This document shows positions 33,470-48,930 of a DNA stretch of 64,000 bases, piece after piece (positions within the stretch are counted from its first letter, which is position 1; each line of letters opens with the position of its first letter). The translations under genes were made by a program, and so were the position numbers. The stretch spans positions 1 to 64,000 of the forward strand of contig NZ_VWSJ01000002.1 of the NCBI RefSeq assembly GCF_009690845.1, read 5' to 3'. The DNA comes from Campylobacter portucalensis (GTDB taxonomy: Bacteria > Campylobacterota > Campylobacteria > Campylobacterales > Campylobacteraceae). Below the pieces are notes generated by a model. That model did no database searches and was not told the origin of the DNA. It saw nothing but the letters and a program-made list of their open reading frames with translations.

Positions 33470-34287
33470 TCTACTAATTAAAAATTTAATCTCTTTTTGA
33501 ATGTTATTTTTTATCCTTAGATACCTTTTGTCTTTTTATTTTAAAGGCTTTATTGATTTAGTTGTCTTATAAATTATGGAATTTAGGTTATATTGAAATA
33601 TGATTGACTGAAAAATATTAAATACATAAAGTCTTTTTTTGCAATTAAAAAATTTGATAGTAAATGAATAGAGCTTATCTTATGCATCAAAAAAATATAT
33701 AAATTTGAGTAGATAAAATGAAAAACATATAGGAGCTTCGTAGCAGATTATACAGAAGTATAAATTTAGCTAAATATTGTTTTAAAATTACAGAAAATGA
33801 AACATGATATTTAAAAAAAAATATTTAAAATAAGAATTTTTATTGAAAATAAATGAGATTTTACTAAATGCAAAACTATTTTAAAGGATAATATAGTAAA
33901 TAAAAATAAAGCTACTTGTTTTTTCTATAAAATAGTAATAGGCAGATGAAAAATTAATATACAAAGATTAAATATTTTGATTTTATCAAATACAAATAAA
34001 AAAATATTGATTTAAATATAATTAAAAAGCGATTAAGTATAAACTCTTTGCAAAAAAATATTAAAAGAAAAAGATATTTATTAGATAGATCTATAGATAA
34101 GCAAAATATATGAAGTGTAGAATTTATTTAAAATCTATTTTCAAATATCCAATTGTATGATCGCCAAAGATAATAAAATATAATTTATATCCATTTTGTA
34201 TTTAATCAATTATTCTATGAATTTAATTAGTTTTTAATATATTTATAATATAATTACTGAAAATCATTACCATAATTAAGGATTATT
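33470..34287. other. Gene-free AT-rich stretch after the CRISPR array
   Basis: No intact reading frame on either strand. A short coding-like trace on the + strand near 33733-33805 (ELRSRLYRSINLAKYCFKIT) is interrupted by stops and not recognised. The last 40 bases hold the Fur-like box and ribosome site of the receptor gene that follows. Confidence 0.5.
34258..34271 (+). promoter_or_regulatory. Fur-like box before the TonB receptor gene
   Basis: TGAAAATCATTACC matches 12 of 14 positions of the right part of the classical Fur box (TGATAATCATTATC) and ends 16 bases before the ATG. The 12-mer TGAAAATCATTA also occurs before the ferrosome-like operon (48831-48842). Confidence 0.5.
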
Positions 34288-37266
34288 ATGAAAAAATCTA
34301 TTTTTTATCTATGTATTTTAAGTTTTGATATCTTAAGTGCTAAACCTCATCATGAACTCGATCGAGTTGAAATTTTTGGAAATCAAGAAGAAATCAAGGA
34401 TAAAAAAATAGGAAAAATATTAAAATCAGATAAAATATTAGCAAAACAACAAGTTAGCGATATTAAAGATTTAGTTAAGTATGAAACAGGAATTAGCGTA
34501 GTTGAAAGTGGTAGATTTGGAACTAGTGGCTATACAATTAGAGGAGTTGATGAAAATAGAGTAGCCATTTTAGTGGATGGAGTTTCTCAGGCTGAAACTA
34601 TCTCATCTCAAGGGTTTAATGAAATATTTTTAGGTTATGGAAATTTCAATAACACTAGAAATAGCGTTGAAATTGAAACATTAAAGCAAGCTACTATTCA
34701 AAAAGGAGCAAATTCAGTAAAATCAGGAAGCGGAGGGCTAGGAGGATCAGTTATTTTTGAGACAAAAGATGCAAGGGATTATCTAATAGATAAAGATTGG
34801 CATTTTGGTATAAAAGCTGGATATATGGATAAAAATAATGAAATTTTCACATCGACATCTTTTGCATTTAAGCTTAAGTGGATTGATTTTTTAGCCGTTA
34901 AAACAAAAAGATTTTCAAAAAATATTAAAAATTATGGATATAAAAGCTATCCAGAAATTGCAGGTAAAAGAAGAAAAAAAGCAGATCCTTACGATATATC
35001 AAAAGATAGCACTTTGGTTAAATTTGCTATAAATCCAAATGGAAACAATAGAATTGTCTTTTTGGCTGACATATATGATGTAAATTCAAAAGGACATGAC
35101 TACTCTTACTCTTTTACTCCATCAAATCACAATACGGGAATTGTCAAATCGCAAGATGGTCTTAGACATACAGATGATAAATCAAAAAGAAAAAACTACT
35201 CAATTACTTTTGAAAACTATGATGAAAACTTTTTTTATGACTCTATGAAATTTACATTTTCTAATCAAAAAATCAAAGCTAAAGCCTATACCGAAGAAAA
35301 ATGTCAAGATGGGGAAAACTGCTCAAATATAAAAAATCCTGCAAATATTCAAGTAAAAAATGGACAAATAAAAGATCAATATGGGGGAGGGTTTACGGTT
35401 GAAGGCTCTGGCATAAATAAAAAACTAATTAATAGCAAAGGAGAAGAACAAGATAAAAATTATTGGAGTTACAAACAACTTATAGGAGAAAAGTTGTGGT
35501 TTGATTGCAGTCTATTTAACTGCGATGCTTTAGAAGTTGATGTAATAGACTCTTATGGTAATTATAAAGACAAAAAAATAATAAAATTAAATTTAAGACA
35601 GACTGATGAAAATAGTAAAAAAATTTATGGTGCTTATGATTGGGATAGCTTAGATGTAAAGTCTAGACCTGATTACTGGGATGTTAAAAATTATGCAGTT
35701 ATTATGCCTACAAATTCAGGGTATTTAGATAGGCAGTGGAAAGATAGAGATTTAAACACTGATACAAAACAATTTAATTTAGATTTTGAAAAATATTTTG
35801 AGGTGTTAAACACTGAGCACGATTTATCATATGGTGGACTAATTTCAAAAGAAGATAAATCTATGGTAAATAAAAGTGGATATGATGGAAGTGATGCTAA
35901 GTGGTGGGCTCAACCTTTTCAACAAATTCAAAATGGAAAGGGAATTAAATGTGATGTTGGCTTCAATGGCTATGCATGCCCTGTTCAAGAGACAAGTTCG
36001 TTTTTAATACCTGTTGAAACTACTACAAGTGCCTTTTATATAGGTGACTATGTTAGAGTAAATGACTGGCTTGCATTTGATCTATCATATAGATACGACA
36101 AATCAAAACATAAACCAAAATATGATCCAAAATCATCTCCAAAAATTCCTGATGATATGGTTAAAGGGCTCTTTATCCAACCAAATTTAAAGCCAATAGA
36201 AAGAAAGCATTTTACAGGCGGAGCTAATTATTGGGATTTGCCTTGGCAAAAAAGATCTGAGATAGATGAAAAAATAAAAGAGAACAAAAAACACAATGAA
36301 AAAGAACTACAAGAAAACGCACAAAAAAATATAGAGTATTTTTCACGCCCTAAAAATTATAGCAACGGCTCTTATCTTTTAGGAGTTGATTTAGATCCAC
36401 TTGATTTTCTTAGAATTTCAGCCAAATACTCAAAAGGATTTCGTAATCCAACTAGCGATGAACTATATTTCACATATAAACATCCTGATTTTACAATTTC
36501 GCCAAATTGGAATTTAGAAACAGAAATTGCTAAAACAAAAGAGATGGCCGTTATTTTTCATAATGATTTAGGGTATTTATCTTTTAGTGCTTTTAAGCAA
36601 AATTATACGAATTTTATAGATTTAAAGTATATGGGTGCTCAAAATTTCCAAATAGTAGGAGGTGTTCAAAGACTTGACTTTTATAGATATCAAAATGTGA
36701 ATAGAAAAAAAGCTAAAGTTGATGGATACGAGATAGATGCAAGACTAAATTTAGGTCAAATAACTAATGTGCTAGCAGGTTTTTCTCTAAATTTTAAACA
36801 TACTCATCAAAAGGGTAGATTTGAAAACGAAAATGGCGAAAAACTTCCTATAAATGCAATAGATCCAAAGAAATTTGTCTATGGAATAGGTTATGTTAGC
36901 CCTAACAAAAGATATGGCTTTGATGTTTTTCTAACTAGCGTTAGTCAAAAAAAGGCCAAAGATACTTATGATATGTACTGGGAGCATGGAGGAAGTGCTG
37001 GAATTAATCACACTAAACAGTTAAGGCATAGAAGTGGTAGTTATAATGTTGTAGATTTGTTAGCTTTTGCAAAACCACTTGAAAATTTAACTTTGACTTT
37101 TGGAGCTTATAATATAACTGATAAAAAATATTTAACTTGGAGTTCGGCTAGGTCAATTAGGCAGTTTGGAACAAGCAACTTAATAGATCAAAGAACGGGT
37201 GAGGGCATTGAGAGATTTTATGAGCCAGGAAGAAATTTCAAATTTACTTTTGAATATGCATTTTAA
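34288..37266 (+). CDS. TonB-dependent receptor, haemoglobin/transferrin/lactoferrin type
   Basis: A 992-residue outer-membrane receptor with signal peptide (cleavage after about LSAKP). The plug domain has QVSDIKDLVKYETGISVVESGR, YTIRGVDENRVAILVDGVSQ and GGLGGSVIFETKDA, the pattern of TbpA/LbpA/HmbR-type receptors that strip iron or haem from host proteins. A long insertion-rich 22-strand barrel follows, and the protein ends with a terminal aromatic strand (FKFTFEYAF). Two CxxxxC pairs in extracellular loops (near 348-356 and 412-419) may form disulphides. It is a single gene with a Fur-like box before it and a terminator after it. Confidence 0.88.
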   Translation: MKKSIFYLCILSFDILSAKPHHELDRVEIFGNQEEIKDKKIGKILKSDKILAKQQVSDIKDLVKYETGISVVESGRFGTSGYTIRGVDENRVAILVDGVSQAETISSQGFNEIFLGYGNFNNTRNSVEIETLKQATIQKGANSVKSGSGGLGGSVIFETKDARDYLIDKDWHFGIKAGYMDKNNEIFTSTSFAFKLKWIDFLAVKTKRFSKNIKNYGYKSYPEIAGKRRKKADPYDISKDSTLVKFAINPNGNNRIVFLADIYDVNSKGHDYSYSFTPSNHNTGIVKSQDGLRHTDDKSKRKNYSITFENYDENFFYDSMKFTFSNQKIKAKAYTEEKCQDGENCSNIKNPANIQVKNGQIKDQYGGGFTVEGSGINKKLINSKGEEQDKNYWSYKQLIGEKLWFDCSLFNCDALEVDVIDSYGNYKDKKIIKLNLRQTDENSKKIYGAYDWDSLDVKSRPDYWDVKNYAVIMPTNSGYLDRQWKDRDLNTDTKQFNLDFEKYFEVLNTEHDLSYGGLISKEDKSMVNKSGYDGSDAKWWAQPFQQIQNGKGIKCDVGFNGYACPVQETSSFLIPVETTTSAFYIGDYVRVNDWLAFDLSYRYDKSKHKPKYDPKSSPKIPDDMVKGLFIQPNLKPIERKHFTGGANYWDLPWQKRSEIDEKIKENKKHNEKELQENAQKNIEYFSRPKNYSNGSYLLGVDLDPLDFLRISAKYSKGFRNPTSDELYFTYKHPDFTISPNWNLETEIAKTKEMAVIFHNDLGYLSFSAFKQNYTNFIDLKYMGAQNFQIVGGVQRLDFYRYQNVNRKKAKVDGYEIDARLNLGQITNVLAGFSLNFKHTHQKGRFENENGEKLPINAIDPKKFVYGIGYVSPNKRYGFDVFLTSVSQKKAKDTYDMYWEHGGSAGINHTKQLRHRSGSYNVVDLLAFAKPLENLTLTFGAYNITDKKYLTWSSARSIRQFGTSNLIDQRTGEGIERFYEPGRNFKFTFEYAF

Positions 37267-41688: not shown

Positions 41689-44235
41689 TTACCATTTATA
41701 TCCAAATTCTAACCAAAACTGACGCCCATTGTCATATTTTTCATAGCCTTTATCAAGCATTACTACATTTTTTTCATTTAAAACATTATTTATATCAAGC
41801 GAAACGTAAGCTTTTTGATTTTTAGCAGTTGGTATATCTAAAACAACTCTTGAGTCCCAAACAAATGTTTCATCAAAATCTTTATCTATATAATTTATAT
41901 ATCTTCTTCCCCCAATATCAACTCTGCCATCAGCTACAGTTGCTTTAAAACCACCTTGAAGAGTAAAGAAATTTGACCAAGTTAAATTTATAAGAGGAAT
42001 TTGAGTTATGGTTGATAAAGTTACAGTCCAAGGAGTATCGTTATCGTTATCAGGAAGTTCGCTTTTGTGGATTATATTTCCTTTATATGCAACTCTACTT
42101 GCTCTTTCATACCCTAAATCATAGATATCATCATAGGTATTAAAATTTCTATTTGTATCTATATAGTTATAAGATATCTCAAAGCTATTTTTTATGCTAG
42201 CTATCTCAAATGGGCTTAAAGTTTTTAAACTTATAGTATAGATATTTGAATTACTTCTTCCATTGTTTGTATAGATATTATAATTCCTTGCTAAATTTAC
42301 ACCATCGCCAGCAGGAAGTCCGGCTGCTTGATTAGTCATTTGTCTAATTAAATCTCTTCCTTTTCTTCTTAAATATTTTGCATTTAATTGGAAATTCCTA
42401 AATTTTTGAGATAGTCCTAATGCAAACTCATCATCATAAGGAACATCTAGATCTGTAAATTTATAGTTATTAGCCCTAGTGCTATCATATATCCACGGTG
42501 AGTTTGGATTTGCTCTTTTATACGTGCTTCTTAGGGATTGTCTATTTTCTTTTAATTTATATGCAAAAATGCTTCTTCCATAGTATCTATTATATCCACC
42601 AAAAATATTTGTTTTATCATCATTAAAAAGATCTAAATTTGCATTTATTCTAGGAGCAATATTTAAATCTCCCATATAGTCATTTTTATCTATCCTAACT
42701 CCAGGTCTAAAAGTAAATCTTTCAATCTCAATACTATCTTCTAAATAAAAGCTAAAATATTTTAAATCAGCCTTAGTTTTACCTGAGTAATAATTATATT
42801 CATCAAAATACTGACCATTCCAACCTTTGATTTTTTTAGTGGGTATGACAGGCTCGTTTAAGCAAAATATATCATTTTTATTGCAAGTAAAACTACCTAA
42901 ATTTTTAGCAACAACTGCGTGATAATAAGGCTTTGTTATGTCATACTTAGCATCTGTTTTTTCAAAACTAAATCCGGTAATAAATTTATGAGTTGTAAAT
43001 CCTAAATCAAACTCATTAAACTCCATATCAAGACTGTAGTTAAATTTATCTTGCTTTTGTTCTACATCTCCACCCACTCCTTCTATAACAGTTGTAGTTC
43101 TACTGGGTGTAAATCCGAGACGATTTTGTGTCTTATACCAAACAAGCATTTTATTTGTATTAGTGTTTCTTGACATCTCAGATTTTGTATAGCTTAGGTT
43201 TTGAGTTAATTTTCCTAGATTAAATTTATATTCTATATTTAGTGCAGTTGTTAGTCCTCCGCCTTGAATTTCGGCTTTTGCATTTTCACCACCTATACTA
43301 TAATAAGTTGCTTCATAAGGTGCATACATTATACTTGGTCTAATGATTAAATTATCATTTGCAAAGTAAATTCCTTTTAAAAAGAAATTTTCATTTTCTC
43401 TTTTTAGCTCTCTTTTTTCATTTAGTTTTGATTTATCATCGTAATCTTTACTATACATTCTTTGCAAAATTTCAGATTTTGTTCTATTATAGTTCATAAG
43501 AAGTCCAAAATTTTCAATTACATATCCATCAAGTATAATGCTTGTTTTAAATTTCTTAAAATCAGGCTGAAAATTTGAATTTGTAGCGTAGTCAAAATCA
43601 TCTTGTCTATTTTTGTTGATATGAAATTTTTGCAAACTATCAGAAGTATGCCTAAAGCTTACTTTTCCATTAAATCTATATCTTGGATCTCTTGTTTTAG
43701 CCCTTACAACTCCGCCTTGGAAATTTCCATATTTAGCTGAAACTGAGCTATCCATAACCTCAATGCTTTCAAGTAGATTGGTATCAACGCCTATGCCTTG
43801 GGATGGATTTGTTAAAAATGGTGTTATATTTGCCACACTTCCAGTTGATAAAACACCACCTTTTGGATTAATATCGTTGTTTATATTTACTCCATCAAGC
43901 AAGAAGTTGTTTTGATAAACTTCAGCACCGTTTATTGAGATATTTTGTTGGATTATCTCGCCTGAGTTTTGAGAAGTTCTCTCACCTCTACTAACCCTAG
44001 CATTTGGGTTTCTTTTTATGATATCTGAAATTGTGCCATCGCCAGCATTTGTATTGTCTAAATACTCTCTTGTGTAAGTTAAAGAGCTATTAAAAGCACT
44101 GCTTTTTATAATGCCATTTTTAAAATTTATATCGTTTAAATTTGCATTAACATTTACATCTTCTAAGATTACGTCGCTCCCCGCATAACTTAAACTATAT
44201 ATTGTTATTAAAAATAATAATGATATTTTATTCAT
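41689..44235 (-). CDS. TonB-dependent outer-membrane receptor
   Basis: An 848-residue receptor with signal peptide (cleavage near SLSYAGS), a plug domain (TISDIIKRNPNARVSRG, then QNISINGAEVYQNNFLLDG and a KYGNFQGGVVRAKTRDP end) and a barrel with terminal strand ending WLEFGYKW. The plug differs from the haemoglobin/transferrin type seen at 34288, so the ligand is likely a small chelate or siderophore; it cannot be named. It heads the exbB-exbD-tonB-ABC operon, an order like the C. jejuni Cj0178-exbB1-exbD1-tonB1 group. GGAGGG precedes the ATG. Confidence 0.87.
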   Translation of the reverse strand: MNKISLLFLITIYSLSYAGSDVILEDVNVNANLNDINFKNGIIKSSAFNSSLTYTREYLDNTNAGDGTISDIIKRNPNARVSRGERTSQNSGEIIQQNISINGAEVYQNNFLLDGVNINNDINPKGGVLSTGSVANITPFLTNPSQGIGVDTNLLESIEVMDSSVSAKYGNFQGGVVRAKTRDPRYRFNGKVSFRHTSDSLQKFHINKNRQDDFDYATNSNFQPDFKKFKTSIILDGYVIENFGLLMNYNRTKSEILQRMYSKDYDDKSKLNEKRELKRENENFFLKGIYFANDNLIIRPSIMYAPYEATYYSIGGENAKAEIQGGGLTTALNIEYKFNLGKLTQNLSYTKSEMSRNTNTNKMLVWYKTQNRLGFTPSRTTTVIEGVGGDVEQKQDKFNYSLDMEFNEFDLGFTTHKFITGFSFEKTDAKYDITKPYYHAVVAKNLGSFTCNKNDIFCLNEPVIPTKKIKGWNGQYFDEYNYYSGKTKADLKYFSFYLEDSIEIERFTFRPGVRIDKNDYMGDLNIAPRINANLDLFNDDKTNIFGGYNRYYGRSIFAYKLKENRQSLRSTYKRANPNSPWIYDSTRANNYKFTDLDVPYDDEFALGLSQKFRNFQLNAKYLRRKGRDLIRQMTNQAAGLPAGDGVNLARNYNIYTNNGRSNSNIYTISLKTLSPFEIASIKNSFEISYNYIDTNRNFNTYDDIYDLGYERASRVAYKGNIIHKSELPDNDNDTPWTVTLSTITQIPLINLTWSNFFTLQGGFKATVADGRVDIGGRRYINYIDKDFDETFVWDSRVVLDIPTAKNQKAYVSLDINNVLNEKNVVMLDKGYEKYDNGRQFWLEFGYKW

Positions 44236-44400
44236 AATTTTCCCTCCGTTAAATTTGTAATTTTATTAGAAAATAGACTATAAATTTAAGATAATAAAGT
44301 TTAGCTACAAATATATAAACTTCCAATCATAAAACAAACTCTATTTTTCTGCAAGCTTTTTAAAAATTTATAAAATATCTTAAATATACTTTCAATTTTT

Positions 44401-44413
44401 AAAATTATTATCA
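44401..44413 (-). promoter_or_regulatory. Possible Fur-like box before the receptor/TonB operon
   Basis: On the - strand TGATAATAATTTT matches 11 of 13 positions of the Fur box half TGATAATCATTAT. It lies about 165 bases before the receptor start, so its role depends on where the promoter is. Confidence 0.3.
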
Positions 44414-44638: not shown

Positions 44639-44887
44639 TTACTCCTTATTTGTGTTATTTTTTGTGTAAAGTTTAGTGTGATAGTAAGAAAATCCTACCA
44701 ACGCAGCACCTGAGATTATGTGTAAATTTTTACCAAATTTACTTTTTGTGTTAAAAGCACTCAAAACAACAAGCCCCATAGAGATAGTCATTCCAAGCTT
44801 TGCTATCTCTTTTTGAGTTGTTATATCAAGAAATTTCGTCTTTTTTTCTTTTGCTAAATTTTCTTTTTGCATTTGAACTAGCTTCAT
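44639..44887 (-). CDS. Small two-helix membrane protein of the ferrosome-like operon
   Basis: An 82-residue protein with a charged N-terminus and two hydrophobic helices (about 29-45 GMTISMGLVVLSA and 53-68 IISGAALVGFSYY). AGGAG lies nine bases before its ATG. It is the last gene of the operon and overlaps the preceding 38-codon gene by 62 bp in another frame. No family recognised. Confidence 0.7.
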   Translation of the reverse strand: MKLVQMQKENLAKEKKTKFLDITTQKEIAKLGMTISMGLVVLSAFNTKSKFGKNLHIISGAALVGFSYYHTKLYTKNNTNKE

Positions 44888-44942
44888 AAATCATCACTCC
44901 TGTAATCACTAATAAAACAGAATTTATTAAAACAAATGGCAT
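44826..44942 (-). CDS. 38-residue single-helix membrane peptide
   Basis: A short gene with GAGGA placed well before its ATG (on the - strand TTGAGGATTTTATATG). The product starts MPFVLINSVLLVITGVMIYEAS, one membrane helix, and ends in a strongly basic tail (AKRKFSKRKKDEIS). It lies between the P-type ATPase gene and the 82-residue gene, and contains the ribosome site of the latter. Small single-helix proteins accompany many transport ATPases. Confidence 0.6.
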   Translation of the reverse strand: MPFVLINSVLLVITGVMIYEASSNAKRKFSKRKKDEIS

Positions 44943-44981
44943 ATAAAATCCTCAATTATGATAGATGCTATTGTATTAAAT

Positions 44982-47039
44982 TTACTCTGATTTCTTGCTT
45001 AAATTTATACCTTTTATTGAATTTAGTAAAAGCCCAATTGTAGTTCCATTGTGTAAAACTGCAGTAATTGCAGGGCTTAGACGACCGATAGTTGCACCAA
45101 ATAAAATTAATGAGTTAATTAAAACCGTGATTTTAAAATTTTTATTTATTAAATTCATGGTTTTGTTTGCTAGCTCTTTTGTCGTTGCAACTGCATAAAA
45201 ATCATCTTTCAACAAGCTAATATCAGCCGTAACTTTTGCTATATCAGCACCTCTTTGCATACTTATACCTACATTTGCTTTAACTAAAGATGGTGCATCA
45301 TTTATTCCATCGCCACAAAAAGTAATATTTTTGCCGCTATTTATTAAATTTTCTATAATCTTTGCTTTATCAGTTGGTAAAAGCTCAGCATAAAAATTAT
45401 CTATACCCAAATCTTTTGCTACTTTTGCAGCCTTATCCTTAATATCTCCTGTAAGCATCACAATCTCTTTTACGCCAAGATTTTTTAGTTTTTTAATGGT
45501 AGCTTTTGCATTTGATCTTATCTCGTCTTTTAACGTGATAATGCCAAGTAATTTTTTATCATAAGCTATATAAAGCACAGCACACCCCGTATTTAAAGCA
45601 CTTTGAATTTCTTGAGTATTTTCCTGAAATGAAACTTTTTCATCATCTTCTAAAAAGTGCCTACTGCCAATTAATACCTCTTTTTTATTATAGTGTGTTT
45701 TTATGCCATGAGCTACTATAAATTCAACCTCATCGTGGTGCATATGTTCAAAACCTAGCTTCTTTGCAGCATCCACAACAGCTTCTGCTATTGGATGGAA
45801 ATAATGTTCTTCAACGCTAGCGGCTAAATTTAAAAGACTCTCTTTATCCCAAAATTCATCAAAGCTAATAACATCTTGAACCCTTAAAACCCCATTTGTT
45901 AAAGTGCCAGTTTTATCAAAAACAAAAACATCGCTTTTTGCTAAAGCTTCAATAGATTTAGCACCTTTTATTAAAATTCCTGCTTTTCCTGCTTTTGAAA
46001 TGCTACTTTTAAAAGCAACTGGTGTTGGAAGTTTTAAAGCACAAGAATAATCAGCTTGCAAAACCGATGCTACACTTGTTGTGTTTTTGTTTATAAGATA
46101 TGAAATGCCTGCTAAACTTAGAGTTAAAGGAACTAATTTATCAGCAAGTTTTGTGGCTTTTAATCCTATTTGAGACTTTTCATTAAGAGAATTTTGGATA
46201 TATTTTTTTATACGTTGCGTGCTTGTATTTTCTCCTGAAAATTCTGTCCAAATTTTAATCTTTCCTTCTTCAACAACAGTTCCACTCATTACGTGTTGCC
46301 CGCGTTCTTTTATAATAGAGCCTGCCTCTCCTGTCATAGATACTTGATTTATACTAGCACTACCTTCAACTATATATCCATCAATAGCAATACTCTCTCC
46401 AGCCCCAACTACTACAATATCACCTTTTTTAATATCATTAGCACTTATTTTTTTAAGAACTTTTTTTTCGTTTTCTATTATTTCGACCCAAGCTTCTTTG
46501 ATATTAGGCTTAGCTAATTCCTTGATTAAATCATCGCTTTTATGGATAGTGCTTTCTTCCATATATTCGCCTATACTTAGCATTAAATTTGTACTATTGG
46601 CTGCTAAATAATCTTTTCTAAAAAGAGATATTGTAATTGCAAGAGCTTCTAAGACTTTTGATGTAAGACCTTGTTTTAAAAGCTCATAAAATCCCTCTCT
46701 TAGGACAGGAAATGATGAAGATATACTAACCAAAGCTTTTGATTTTGTTAAAAATGGAGTTATCAAGCAAGAAATACCAGCAATGGCTATATTTTTCTTG
46801 CTGATAGAATTTTGTTGTTTTGTAGTTAGTGAAATTTTAGAAATTTTTTCCAAAATTTCATCTAAATTTCCATTGAATTTCAAAACAATGCATTGAGAAA
46901 TTTTATTAACCCTAACTCCAAAAACTCCATCTAAATTTGAGATTTCATTTTCTAAATTTCTTTCATCAGTATTGCGTTTTAATCCATTATGCAAAAATCT
47001 AACGCGATTTTTAGTTTGATGAACTATTTTAAAACTCAT
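44982..47039 (-). CDS. P1B-type metal-transporting ATPase (FezB-like)
   Basis: A P-type ATPase of 685 residues. The N-terminus has an HMA2-like domain with RVRF (KIVHQTKNRVRFLHNG). Catalytic motifs are complete: DKTGTLTNG (about residue 375), TGEAGS actuator loop, HP motif (YFHPIAEAV), GDGINDAPSL. In the membrane helix where copper and zinc pumps have CPC it reads DYSCALKLPTP, so only one cysteine remains. That, plus its company of HMA2, ferritin-like and tiny membrane proteins, points to the P1B-6-type pumps of ferrosome (fez) clusters, which load iron into organelles. Start at 47039 has GAAGAAA before it and overlaps the YtxH-like gene by 11 bp. Confidence 0.85.
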   Translation of the reverse strand: MSFKIVHQTKNRVRFLHNGLKRNTDERNLENEISNLDGVFGVRVNKISQCIVLKFNGNLDEILEKISKISLTTKQQNSISKKNIAIAGISCLITPFLTKSKALVSISSSFPVLREGFYELLKQGLTSKVLEALAITISLFRKDYLAANSTNLMLSIGEYMEESTIHKSDDLIKELAKPNIKEAWVEIIENEKKVLKKISANDIKKGDIVVVGAGESIAIDGYIVEGSASINQVSMTGEAGSIIKERGQHVMSGTVVEEGKIKIWTEFSGENTSTQRIKKYIQNSLNEKSQIGLKATKLADKLVPLTLSLAGISYLINKNTTSVASVLQADYSCALKLPTPVAFKSSISKAGKAGILIKGAKSIEALAKSDVFVFDKTGTLTNGVLRVQDVISFDEFWDKESLLNLAASVEEHYFHPIAEAVVDAAKKLGFEHMHHDEVEFIVAHGIKTHYNKKEVLIGSRHFLEDDEKVSFQENTQEIQSALNTGCAVLYIAYDKKLLGIITLKDEIRSNAKATIKKLKNLGVKEIVMLTGDIKDKAAKVAKDLGIDNFYAELLPTDKAKIIENLINSGKNITFCGDGINDAPSLVKANVGISMQRGADIAKVTADISLLKDDFYAVATTKELANKTMNLINKNFKITVLINSLILFGATIGRLSPAITAVLHNGTTIGLLLNSIKGINLSKKSE

Positions 47040-47319
47040 TTTCTTCAAGCTCTGCTTTTGCATCTTCAAATCTCTCTTTTATCTCTTCACTTCCAGCTTG
47101 AATTAATTGATTGATTTTAAGGATTGATTTAAATAGTGTTTGTTGAGCTTTTTCGTTTGTTAAAAGATATGCACCAACTGCTCCAATAACTGCACCTTGA
47201 AAAAAACTAGCAGAGTTAAAGCTATTAGGCAATAAAGATCCTAAAATTCCGCTATTTTGAGAATTTGATAAATTATGTTGTATTTTTTCTTGATTTTGTT
47301 GAATGTATGGATTTTTCAT
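47029..47319 (-). CDS. YtxH-like small membrane protein
   Basis: A 96-residue protein: polar glutamine-rich N-terminus, a glycine-spaced hydrophobic helix (GAVIGAVGAYLLTNEKAQQ, about 43-61), and a charged amphipathic helix ending AKAELEENEF. The hydrophobic glycine segment followed by a NEK-type turn resembles YtxH proteins. AAGGAG lies before its ATG, which overlaps the stop of the previous gene. Confidence 0.75.
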   Translation of the reverse strand: MKNPYIQQNQEKIQHNLSNSQNSGILGSLLPNSFNSASFFQGAVIGAVGAYLLTNEKAQQTLFKSILKINQLIQAGSEEIKERFEDAKAELEENEF

Positions 47320-47615
47320 TTTATCTCCTTTTGTTTAAAAATATTTTCTAAAGCAATTATAAAACCAATTCCAAGAGCTATGTCAAAACTAGCTTTGAGA
47401 TAGTTTTTTTGCACGATTTTATTTGATGCACTAATTGCAAGCGAGGTTGCGATTGCACTCTTTAATGAATATTTTGCAATATTTTTTGCAATTTGTGTTT
47501 TTGTGGTGTTTTTGTTTTGAATTTCAATAGCACCAGCTGTAATACCGCCAATCAAAGCACCACTAATAAAATGATCAGCAGGAAGCCTTGTATTTGATAT
47601 TTGTAAATTTAACAT
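47316..47615 (-). CDS. Small membrane protein of the ferrosome-like operon
   Basis: A protein of about 99 residues with glycine/alanine-rich hydrophobic stretches (FISGALIGGITAGAIE, SAIATSLAISA and a last helix IALGIGFIIALENIF). The start is placed at 47615, which has AAGGA before it; the longer in-frame start at 47666 would overlap the previous gene. Glycine-zipper-like hydrophobic segments are a repeated theme in this operon. Function unknown. Confidence 0.7.
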   Translation of the reverse strand: MLNLQISNTRLPADHFISGALIGGITAGAIEIQNKNTTKTQIAKNIAKYSLKSAIATSLAISASNKIVQKNYLKASFDIALGIGFIIALENIFKQKEIK

Positions 47616-47619
47616 ATTA

Positions 47620-47820
47620 TTATCCTTTATCGATATTTTTTGTTGATGAATTGATATTTTCATCACATGTATTTGTGCAACAATTATCTTTTAAATTTTG
47701 TGCTATATCTTTACCTTTTTCAATGCTTTGATAAAAAAAATCTTCGATTTTGTCTCTATTTTTAAAAGCAACTACTGCCAATGAACCAACAGCCAAACCA
47801 GCTATAAATGGAAGTGCCAT
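47620..47820 (-). CDS. Small cysteine-containing membrane protein
   Basis: 66 residues: an N-terminal hydrophobic helix (PFIAGLAVGSLAVVAF), an amphipathic stretch (KIEDFFYQSIEKGKD) and a cysteine cluster (NCCTNTCDEN) that could bind a metal ion. Preceded by GGAG. It lies between the ferritin-like gene and the 99-residue gene, with small gaps. Confidence 0.7.
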   Translation of the reverse strand: MALPFIAGLAVGSLAVVAFKNRDKIEDFFYQSIEKGKDIAQNLKDNCCTNTCDENINSSTKNIDKG

Positions 47821-47841
47821 AATATCTCCTTTAATCTAAAT

Positions 47842-48441
47842 TTATATTTTTTCTTTGAGAATTTCATTTATAAAAATTCCGCCCAACGCTCCAACTCCAG
47901 CACCCAACAAAAAAGAAAAATATGGATGATTTAGAAATGATTGAATTTCATTTTGAGATGCTTTACCATTTTTAAGTTTTTTTAAAATTTTACTCAATTC
48001 TTTGATAGAATTTACATCTAAATTTAAACCAAATTGTTTTAAATTTTCAATACCAAAAAAATCTTGTTTTAAGACATCTTCGCATTTTGAAAGCTCTAAA
48101 TTTAACGCTTTTTTATACTCATTTTCAGATGTTGCCCAAAGTCTGAAAAATATATCTCTTAAAGCATTGTCTGTTACGGAATTTGTAATATCATCGTAAA
48201 TAAATGATGCTTTATTTTCATAAGTTAAAGCAAGTATAATTCCATCTTTTAAGGATATTAAATTTTGTGGTGCAATTTCATCTAAACTTTCATCTGTTTT
48301 GAAATTTTGTAATAAATTTAAACCAGACTTTTTGATTTCTAAAATTTGATTAAAAATTTCACAACCAAATTTATTAAAAAGCTCACTGTAAAGCAAAATC
48401 CCTTCATTTTCATAGTTTAATGCTATTTGTAACTCTTTCAT
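47842..48441 (-). CDS. Ferritin-like protein with a C-terminal membrane anchor
   Basis: A 199-residue protein. The first 130 residues form a helical bundle with ferritin-like Glu-rich motifs: NYENEGILLYSELF, TYENKASFIYDDI and TSENEYKKALNLE, in the spacing of rubrerythrin/ferritin-like diiron domains. The C-terminus carries a glycine-rich membrane helix (FLLGAGVGALGGIFINEIL). This suggests an iron-binding or oxidising protein tethered to a membrane. Its ATG overlaps the stop of the HMA2-like gene (ATGA). Confidence 0.7.
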   Translation of the reverse strand: MKELQIALNYENEGILLYSELFNKFGCEIFNQILEIKKSGLNLLQNFKTDESLDEIAPQNLISLKDGIILALTYENKASFIYDDITNSVTDNALRDIFFRLWATSENEYKKALNLELSKCEDVLKQDFFGIENLKQFGLNLDVNSIKELSKILKKLKNGKASQNEIQSFLNHPYFSFLLGAGVGALGGIFINEILKEKI

Positions 48442-48770
48442 AAAACCTCTTTCATTTTTTCATCTATTTTAGATATGAAATTTTCGACTTTTTTATTTTC
48501 AATTATATCGATCCAAAATTCCTTACTATATTCATTTTTATCATATTCTATAGTAATAAAGCCAAGTAGTGAGTTAAATTTAAAATTTTTAATGCCTTTT
48601 ATCTCTTGAAGCATTTGATTTAGTTTGTTTAAATCAACTTTTTCTACATTATTAATCTTTTTTAACTCATCTTTTATTTTACTAGAAACCCTAACTCTTA
48701 AACGCCCATGAGTATGGTGAATTATCGAACAATGTGATAAAATACTAATTAAAAAATCTTTTGTTACCAT
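48438..48770 (-). CDS. HMA2-like domain protein, first gene of the ferrosome-like operon
   Basis: A protein of 110 residues with the pattern IIHHTHGRLRVRVSS, the start of an HMA2 (heavy-metal-associated, non-cysteine) domain, and a second strand GIKNFKFNSLLGFITIEYD. A related motif begins the ATPase of the same operon (HQTKNRVRF). The start is the ATG at 48770, with AAGGA before it. A Fur-like box lies 60 bases upstream. Confidence 0.7.
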   Translation of the reverse strand: MVTKDFLISILSHCSIIHHTHGRLRVRVSSKIKDELKKINNVEKVDLNKLNQMLQEIKGIKNFKFNSLLGFITIEYDKNEYSKEFWIDIIENKKVENFISKIDEKMKEVL

Positions 48771-48830: not shown

Positions 48831-48844
48831 TGAAAATCATTATT
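48831..48844 (-). promoter_or_regulatory. Fur-like box before the ferrosome-like operon
   Basis: On the + strand TGAAAATCATTATT, 12 to 13 of 14 positions like the Fur box half TGATAATCATTATC, 61 bases before the first gene of the operon. The same 12-mer TGAAAATCATTA precedes the TonB receptor gene at 34288. Confidence 0.45.
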
Positions 48845-48930
48845 ATTTAAATATGGATAAAATTTTATACAAATTTGCTAATATTAAAATTTTATAAACT
48901 TTTTTAAAATTGCTAAGATTTAAATAAAAA

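Follow-up and report, generated by a model that had tools for sequence, protein, structure and literature searches.

Does Campylobacter portucalensis carry the genes for a ferrosome? So far very few bacteria have been shown to make ferrosomes, a 2025 review raised the question of their occurrence in other pathogens or commensals (PMC12574912), and we found no description of them in Campylobacter in the literature searched. The question is posed by a compact minus-strand operon at 44639-48770 of a 64,000-nucleotide stretch of contig NZ_VWSJ01000002.1 (hereafter the window), which a preliminary description had read as a ferrosome-type (fez) operon. We hold with high confidence that it is a fez operon, because its core genes are homologous to and ordered as those of proteobacterial fez-like operons, a six-gene Rhodopseudomonas operon included, its P1B-type ATPase (o6) falls into the corresponding clade with 100/100 support and carries the DYSC and HN motifs, and its last gene, o8, reads as a FezC-type module. 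With somewhat less assurance, we consider it probable that the operon's products build a ferrosome, o6 pumping Fe(II) into a membrane vesicle or domain in which it is stored with phosphate; on this gene content, ferrosome formation in the organism is likely. What is new here, as read from the sequence, is a full fez gene set to which a ferritin-like protein (o2) and a 38-residue peptide (o7) are added, with the predicted haem protein as a stand-alone two-helix version.

All eight genes of the preliminary description were found as intact open reading frames (ORFs), head to tail and tightly packed, in the transcription order o1 to o8 (aa, amino acids; TM, transmembrane helix):

48438..48770, minus strand: o1, first gene, HMA2-domain protein of 110 aa (PF19991, E=2.8e-6; profile matches).
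47842..48441, minus strand: o2, ferritin-like four-helix protein with a C-terminal membrane anchor, 199 aa (AlphaFold2 (AF2) model, Foldseek, ligand alignment).
47620..47820, minus strand: o3, N-terminal glycine-rich membrane helix and Cys-containing tail, 66 aa (hydrophobic residues 1-19, NCCTNTC).
47316..47615, minus strand: o4, small glycine/alanine-rich hydrophobic protein, 99 aa (profile match in 66/66 named operons).
47029..47319, minus strand: o5, YtxH-like protein with a glycine-rich membrane helix and a Glu/Ala/Lys helix, 96 aa (profile match in 66/66).
44982..47039, minus strand: o6, P1B-6-type ATPase (FezB), 685 aa (TIGR01525, tree, motifs).
44826..44942, minus strand: o7, single-helix membrane peptide of 38 aa (conservation, codon-position bias).
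44639..44887, minus strand: o8, two-helix FezC-like module of 82 aa with H-x13-H, putative haem b site (profile-profile match).
48831..48845, no strand: Fur-box-like 7-1-7 palindrome, 12/14 matching, between the operon and trkH (sequence evidence only).

The gaps from o1 to o8 are -4, 21, 4, -4, -11, 39 and -62 bases. The HMA2-like nature of o1 stands, with its PF19991 match 2 bits below the cut-off, as does the cysteine cluster noticed in a small membrane protein, which lies in o3. In 34 relative Campylobacterota loci with flanks, together with the window, o1, o3, o4, o5 and o6 recur in one order, and o2, o8 and o7 are present in 27/35, 26/35 and 13/35 loci respectively; these counts are approximate, since at least two loci end at contig ends and o3-o5 cross-match in two. 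Outside its overlap with o8, the differences in o7 fall mostly at codon position 3, and o7 has been seen so far only in Campylobacterota, in the 13 loci and on an Arcobacter plasmid. Because gene order is kept in relatives and even the 38-aa o7 has codon-position bias, the operon is not a chance arrangement. The o7/o8 overlap spans 62 bases in different frames (44826-44887), and comparable long overlaps occur in relatives (e.g. L035, L036, L037).

The pump passes the cut-offs of TIGR01525 (455.7 bits) and TIGR01512 (the cadmium family), both of them generic, which would also suit a role in detoxifying another metal (Zn, Cd, Ni, Co or Cu) with the help of accessory proteins. As first described, o6 has an HMA2-like N-terminus (E=2.6e-5) and lacks CPC: its TM4 (QADYSCALKLPTP) reads QADYSCALKL, with DYSCALKL in place of CPC, and SPC, CPH and TPC are likewise absent from o6, which speaks against such a detoxification pump. 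TM6, at the C-terminus, reads LHNGTTIG and carries the HN motif that is a conserved feature of P1B6 pumps (PMC9374683); HN in TM6 is present in 33/34 Campylobacterota members and 83/83 other members, and absent from the reference P1B-1/2/4/5 pumps. For comparison, named genomes were scanned with a 73-aa stretch around TM4, yielding 429 relatives from which the best 80 were kept. This set consists mainly of Alpha- and Betaproteobacteria, as the first query row was Azospirillum. In a maximum-likelihood tree, o6 and the pumps of proteobacterial fez-like operons form one clade (support 100/100) set apart from Escherichia coli CopA and ZntA, Sinorhizobium meliloti FixI and Nia, and Cupriavidus metallidurans PbrA and CzcP, the labels FixI, Nia (a TPC pump), PbrA and CzcP (an SPC pump) having been assigned by motif, plasmid and neighbourhood. 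Thus the grouping with zinc, copper or cobalt pumps that would have spoken against a fez operon was not found, and besides o6 only three P1B pumps were found in the window genome, which are CopA-like, Zn/Cd-like and CcoI-like. We therefore regard the detoxification of another metal as very improbable. On motifs and tree placement o6 is a P1B-6-type ATPase (FezB), in a clade separate from P1B-1, -2, -4 and -5: it shares with that subfamily the HN in TM6 and the lack of CPC in TM4, and we found no feature that distinguishes it. The P1B-6 subgroup is listed as Fe(II) pumps (PMC7558416). A scan of viral contigs found no relative of the o6 ATPase.

Gene profiles trained on the Campylobacterota loci were then applied to 66 named alpha-, beta- and gammaproteobacterial operons with enough flank; because of that training set, only matches outside Campylobacterota count as independent. 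Counterparts were found for o1 in 63/66 of these operons and for both o4 and o5 in 66/66, with weak o3 matches in 37/66, and the proteobacterial loci share the conserved order o1, (o2), (o3), o4, o5, pump. An Aeromonas member of the o5 family matches YtxH at E=1e-4, below the cut-off. In four relatives (L053, L059, L062, L066) o4 and o5 are a single fused protein, suggesting that both act together. A link of o4 to the magnetosome protein MamC was considered and rejected (NF038051, 15.2 bits against a cut-off of 100; E=0.02).

Rhodopseudomonas palustris CGA009 reportedly builds its ferrosomes with six fez genes (PMC12016538). The locus that we compared, from Rhodopseudomonas sp. BR0M22, likewise counts six genes. 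The first encodes an HMA2 protein ending in two helices and is followed by o1, an o3-like gene (assigned by position and appearance, as the o3 profile does not reach it), o4, o5 and the pump. BR0M22 has one pump of o6 type, its next paralogue being 36% identical, and o6-type pumps occur in 5/16 Rhodopseudomonas genomes, four of the five at >=92% identity. The small proteins, whose comparison with fez clusters had been proposed, agree with this operon in order and sequence: o1, o3-like, o4, o5 and FezB share order and strand, and the FezC-type His-pair module is also present in the window as o8. All six core Rhodopseudomonas genes thus have a window counterpart, FezC only as its C-terminal module and in another place, its gene last rather than first and without the HMA2 half; the window also differs in its two extra genes, o2 and o7.

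A pump surrounded by small helical proteins in one operon also recalls the PacL1-CtpC zinc efflux platform of Mycobacterium tuberculosis (PMC9374683), where a P1B6-like pump is accompanied by small helical scaffold proteins. Read in this way, a plasma-membrane P1B-6 pump with small scaffold or chaperone helices would export iron or another divalent metal and no compartment would be made, and the Glu/Ala/Lys helix following the TM helix of o5 and the Cys tail of o3 could be accommodated. The PacL1-CtpC system, however, has a DUF1490 scaffold, zinc induction and a CPC motif (in TM4 of CtpC, where o6 has YSC) and lacks the HMA2 satellite, FezC and ferritin-like genes, whereas DUF1490 and DUF6110 match none of o1-o8 or the relatives tested and the window operon fits the six-gene ferrosome layout including the FezC module, for which a pump platform would have no need. 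We consider an efflux platform improbable, although it is the leading rival, and return to the fez reading with o8.

The first gene of the proteobacterial operons encodes a protein whose tail is a helix pair carrying two invariant histidines, and it is from this DUF4405-like tail and the published description that we take the name FezC for that gene. FezC was demonstrated to be a haem-b cytochrome; it is related to DUF4405 and modelled as a homodimer (PMC10979944). A profile of the FezC tail run over all ORFs of the 35 Campylobacterota loci gave 18 matches, all of them o8 (best E=4e-5; window o8 E=0.002), and in profile-profile comparison o8 matched the same tail with prob 94.6 and E=7e-8. Moreover, H-x13-H is present in 26/26 o8 sequences, and the identical spacing is invariant in 19 FezC-like proteins. 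Matches of o8 and its relatives to DUF4405 itself are subthreshold (E=0.008 in an Arcobacter relative). Given the tail-profile match and the published link of FezC to DUF4405 cytochromes, the best reading of o8 is a FezC of which only the haem half has been kept, placed at the operon end: like those cytochromes it carries two histidines, identically spaced, on a pair of membrane helices, from which we infer haem b binding, and it differs in being the two-helix half only, with no HMA2 domain found in its 82 residues. The preliminary inventory had counted o8 correctly among the small membrane proteins but missed this FezC-type identity. That so minimal a version exists hints at the half of FezC that cannot be dispensed with.

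For o2, a ferritin-like protein with a membrane anchor had been proposed. The hydrophobic anchor was located at residues 177-195, and an AF2 model (predicted local distance difference test, pLDDT, 79.6; predicted TM-score, pTM, 0.60) has four long helices followed by this anchor. The model matched ferritin-fold structures in Foldseek (MJ0754, Dps-like PA4880, FtnA, Bfr and rubrerythrin; prob 1.00, E about 1e-2), and we assign a four-helix ferritin-like fold with moderate confidence. The likeness to ferritins lies at the level of the fold: neither the Pfam ferritin families (PF00210 included) nor rubrerythrin gave a match above threshold for the window o2, and Arcobacter and Thauera members have rubrerythrin/DUF2202 matches that are subthreshold. 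At the ligand positions the window protein reads E,K,G,E,E,Y versus E,E,H,E,-,H in Arcobacter/Thauera (ligands of the type E, ExxH, E, H), having lost both ligand histidines and the helix-2 Glu; the helix-3 Glu is present in 27/27 Campylobacterota sequences. Because both histidines are lost, the window o2 probably does not work as a normal ferroxidase. Some Aromatoleum-type members likewise lack the diiron ligands, and this graded loss makes the role of o2 testable.

A ferritin-like gene occupies the equal slot, between o1 and o3, in Betaproteobacteria (Thauera, Aromatoleum) and in Azotobacter/Pseudomonas, and o2 is therefore a recurrent accessory and no invention of the window genome. The operons of Thauera, Aromatoleum and Azotobacter (L111, L115, L148, L149 and others) share the core genes and this slot with the window, and differ in that most of their ferritin-like proteins retain E, ExxH, E, H and in lacking o7 and o8. 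The suggestion that the ferritin-like partner is a variant part was thus borne out in that the gene is optional (23/66 named operons), and is refined by its recurrence across classes and its ligand-poor form here. Its fold and anchor, and its place inside the operon in several bacterial classes, could also be taken to mean that the operon chiefly makes a protein store of ferritin type, a membrane-tethered ferritin that the ATPase fills or empties. That is highly unlikely, as every operon has the ATPase, o4 and o5 whereas o2 is optional, and the diiron ligands of the window o2 are incomplete. Tentatively, and with considerable doubt, we put forward a hybrid store within the fez reading: the ferritin-fold o2, carried on the ferrosome membrane, may have swapped catalysis for docking or nucleation, with iron redox carried out by the stand-alone two-helix haem dimer, the job having moved from o2 to the FezC-type module in Campylobacteraceae.

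Downstream the operon is flanked by a tRNA-Glu gene and a TonB-dependent receptor, upstream by the divergent trkH (the names of receptor and trkH being our reading of the sequence). The neighbourhood includes TonB receptors and ExbD/TonB-like genes, so that the TonB uptake genes proposed as neighbours are indeed there. The genome also encodes FeoB and four Fur-family regulators. The proposed Fur-like box was found with 12/14 matching positions and is enriched in relatives, but taken alone it is not significant: the 64-kb window has four such sites versus 2.3 expected. Three of the four are directly upstream of the fez operon and two TonB receptors. Upstream of relatives' operons 9/33 reach 12/14 versus 23/700 control stretches, part of this excess being due to base composition because the control stretches are mostly coding; in a composition-matched test at 0.05, 9/33 relatives pass versus fewer than two expected. 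That the operon is accompanied by a Fur-like box and TonB genes, and not by a regulator of metal resistance, also argues against the detoxification of another metal. In C. difficile (Clostridioides difficile), Fur is reported to repress the fez operon (PMC12574912). The Fur-box-like sites (12/14) at the TonB-dependent receptor genes 34288-37266 and 41689-44235 lie directly upstream of them, at 34258-34272 and 44399-44413.

In the mechanism that we propose, Fe(II) would enter through FeoB, or through TonB systems after reduction, and o6 would move cytoplasmic Fe(II) into a membrane compartment for storage with phosphate. At the cytoplasmic face, o1 and the HMA2 domain of o6 itself may handle or sense the metal, while o3, o4 and o5, with their glycine-rich helices and charged tails, would insert closely into the membrane, give it its shape and keep the pump in place. 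An o8 dimer with haem b could pass electrons across the membrane and set the oxidation state of the iron, and o2, on the compartment membrane, may serve as a ferritin-fold docking or nucleation subunit rather than as a normal ferroxidase in this clade. Fur would repress the operon in iron plenty, and we propose that cells leaving starvation could in this way store iron fast.

Several points weigh against a ferrosome here. The iron compartment is predicted from gene content; the window o8 lacks the HMA2 half of FezC; and in eight relatives whose flanks are intact o8 could not be recognised, so that it is not universal. The genome also has one canonical ferritin, so that a second iron store is not obviously needed. 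Finally, the comparison was with the Rhodopseudomonas locus of the congener BR0M22 rather than with CGA009 or the tested Fez proteins of Desulfovibrio magneticus, Shewanella putrefaciens and C. difficile, the nearest stand-in for a C. difficile-type cluster being a distant Priestia plasmid cluster (~32% identity) with three HMA2 genes and DFICGIKL, not DYSC.

The o6 ATPase was found in 69/150 relatives at 45-79% identity, and the pump in 135/397 near-complete sampled genomes of the phylum. Among the genomes listed, one large Campylobacter-like genus (g4) commonly has it and a second genus (g2) hardly ever, a patchy distribution that offers a natural comparison for iron starvation. In one family of the order (f14; L054, L057, L058) a fez-like operon has an ATPase without the N-terminal HMA2 that reads DYSCALRLTVP, and o2, o7 and o8 are not recognisable. 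In 9/34 relatives the first operon gene is a second P1B ATPase, which was looked for and not found in the window genome:

L036:1910-4006 and L037:1606-3762, operon orientation: second P1B ATPase, also in L035, L038, L039, L040, L045, L060 and L068.

This protein begins with an HMA2-like sequence, its TM4 reads MSCPC and its TM6 H(I/L)xHT, and its members make up a clade of their own (support 100/100) that lies apart from the reference classes compared. Plasmids carry fez-type operons as well. On the 133-kb Arcobacter plasmid p133_DSM_115972 (L070) the operon of Campylobacterota type is complete, with all eight genes, o7 and o8 among them, and the conjugative plasmid pORIO2 of Cereibacter azotoformans (L071) bears a fez-like cluster with DYACPVKL in TM4 and, nearby, TonB receptors, FeoA and a sigma factor/FecR pair.

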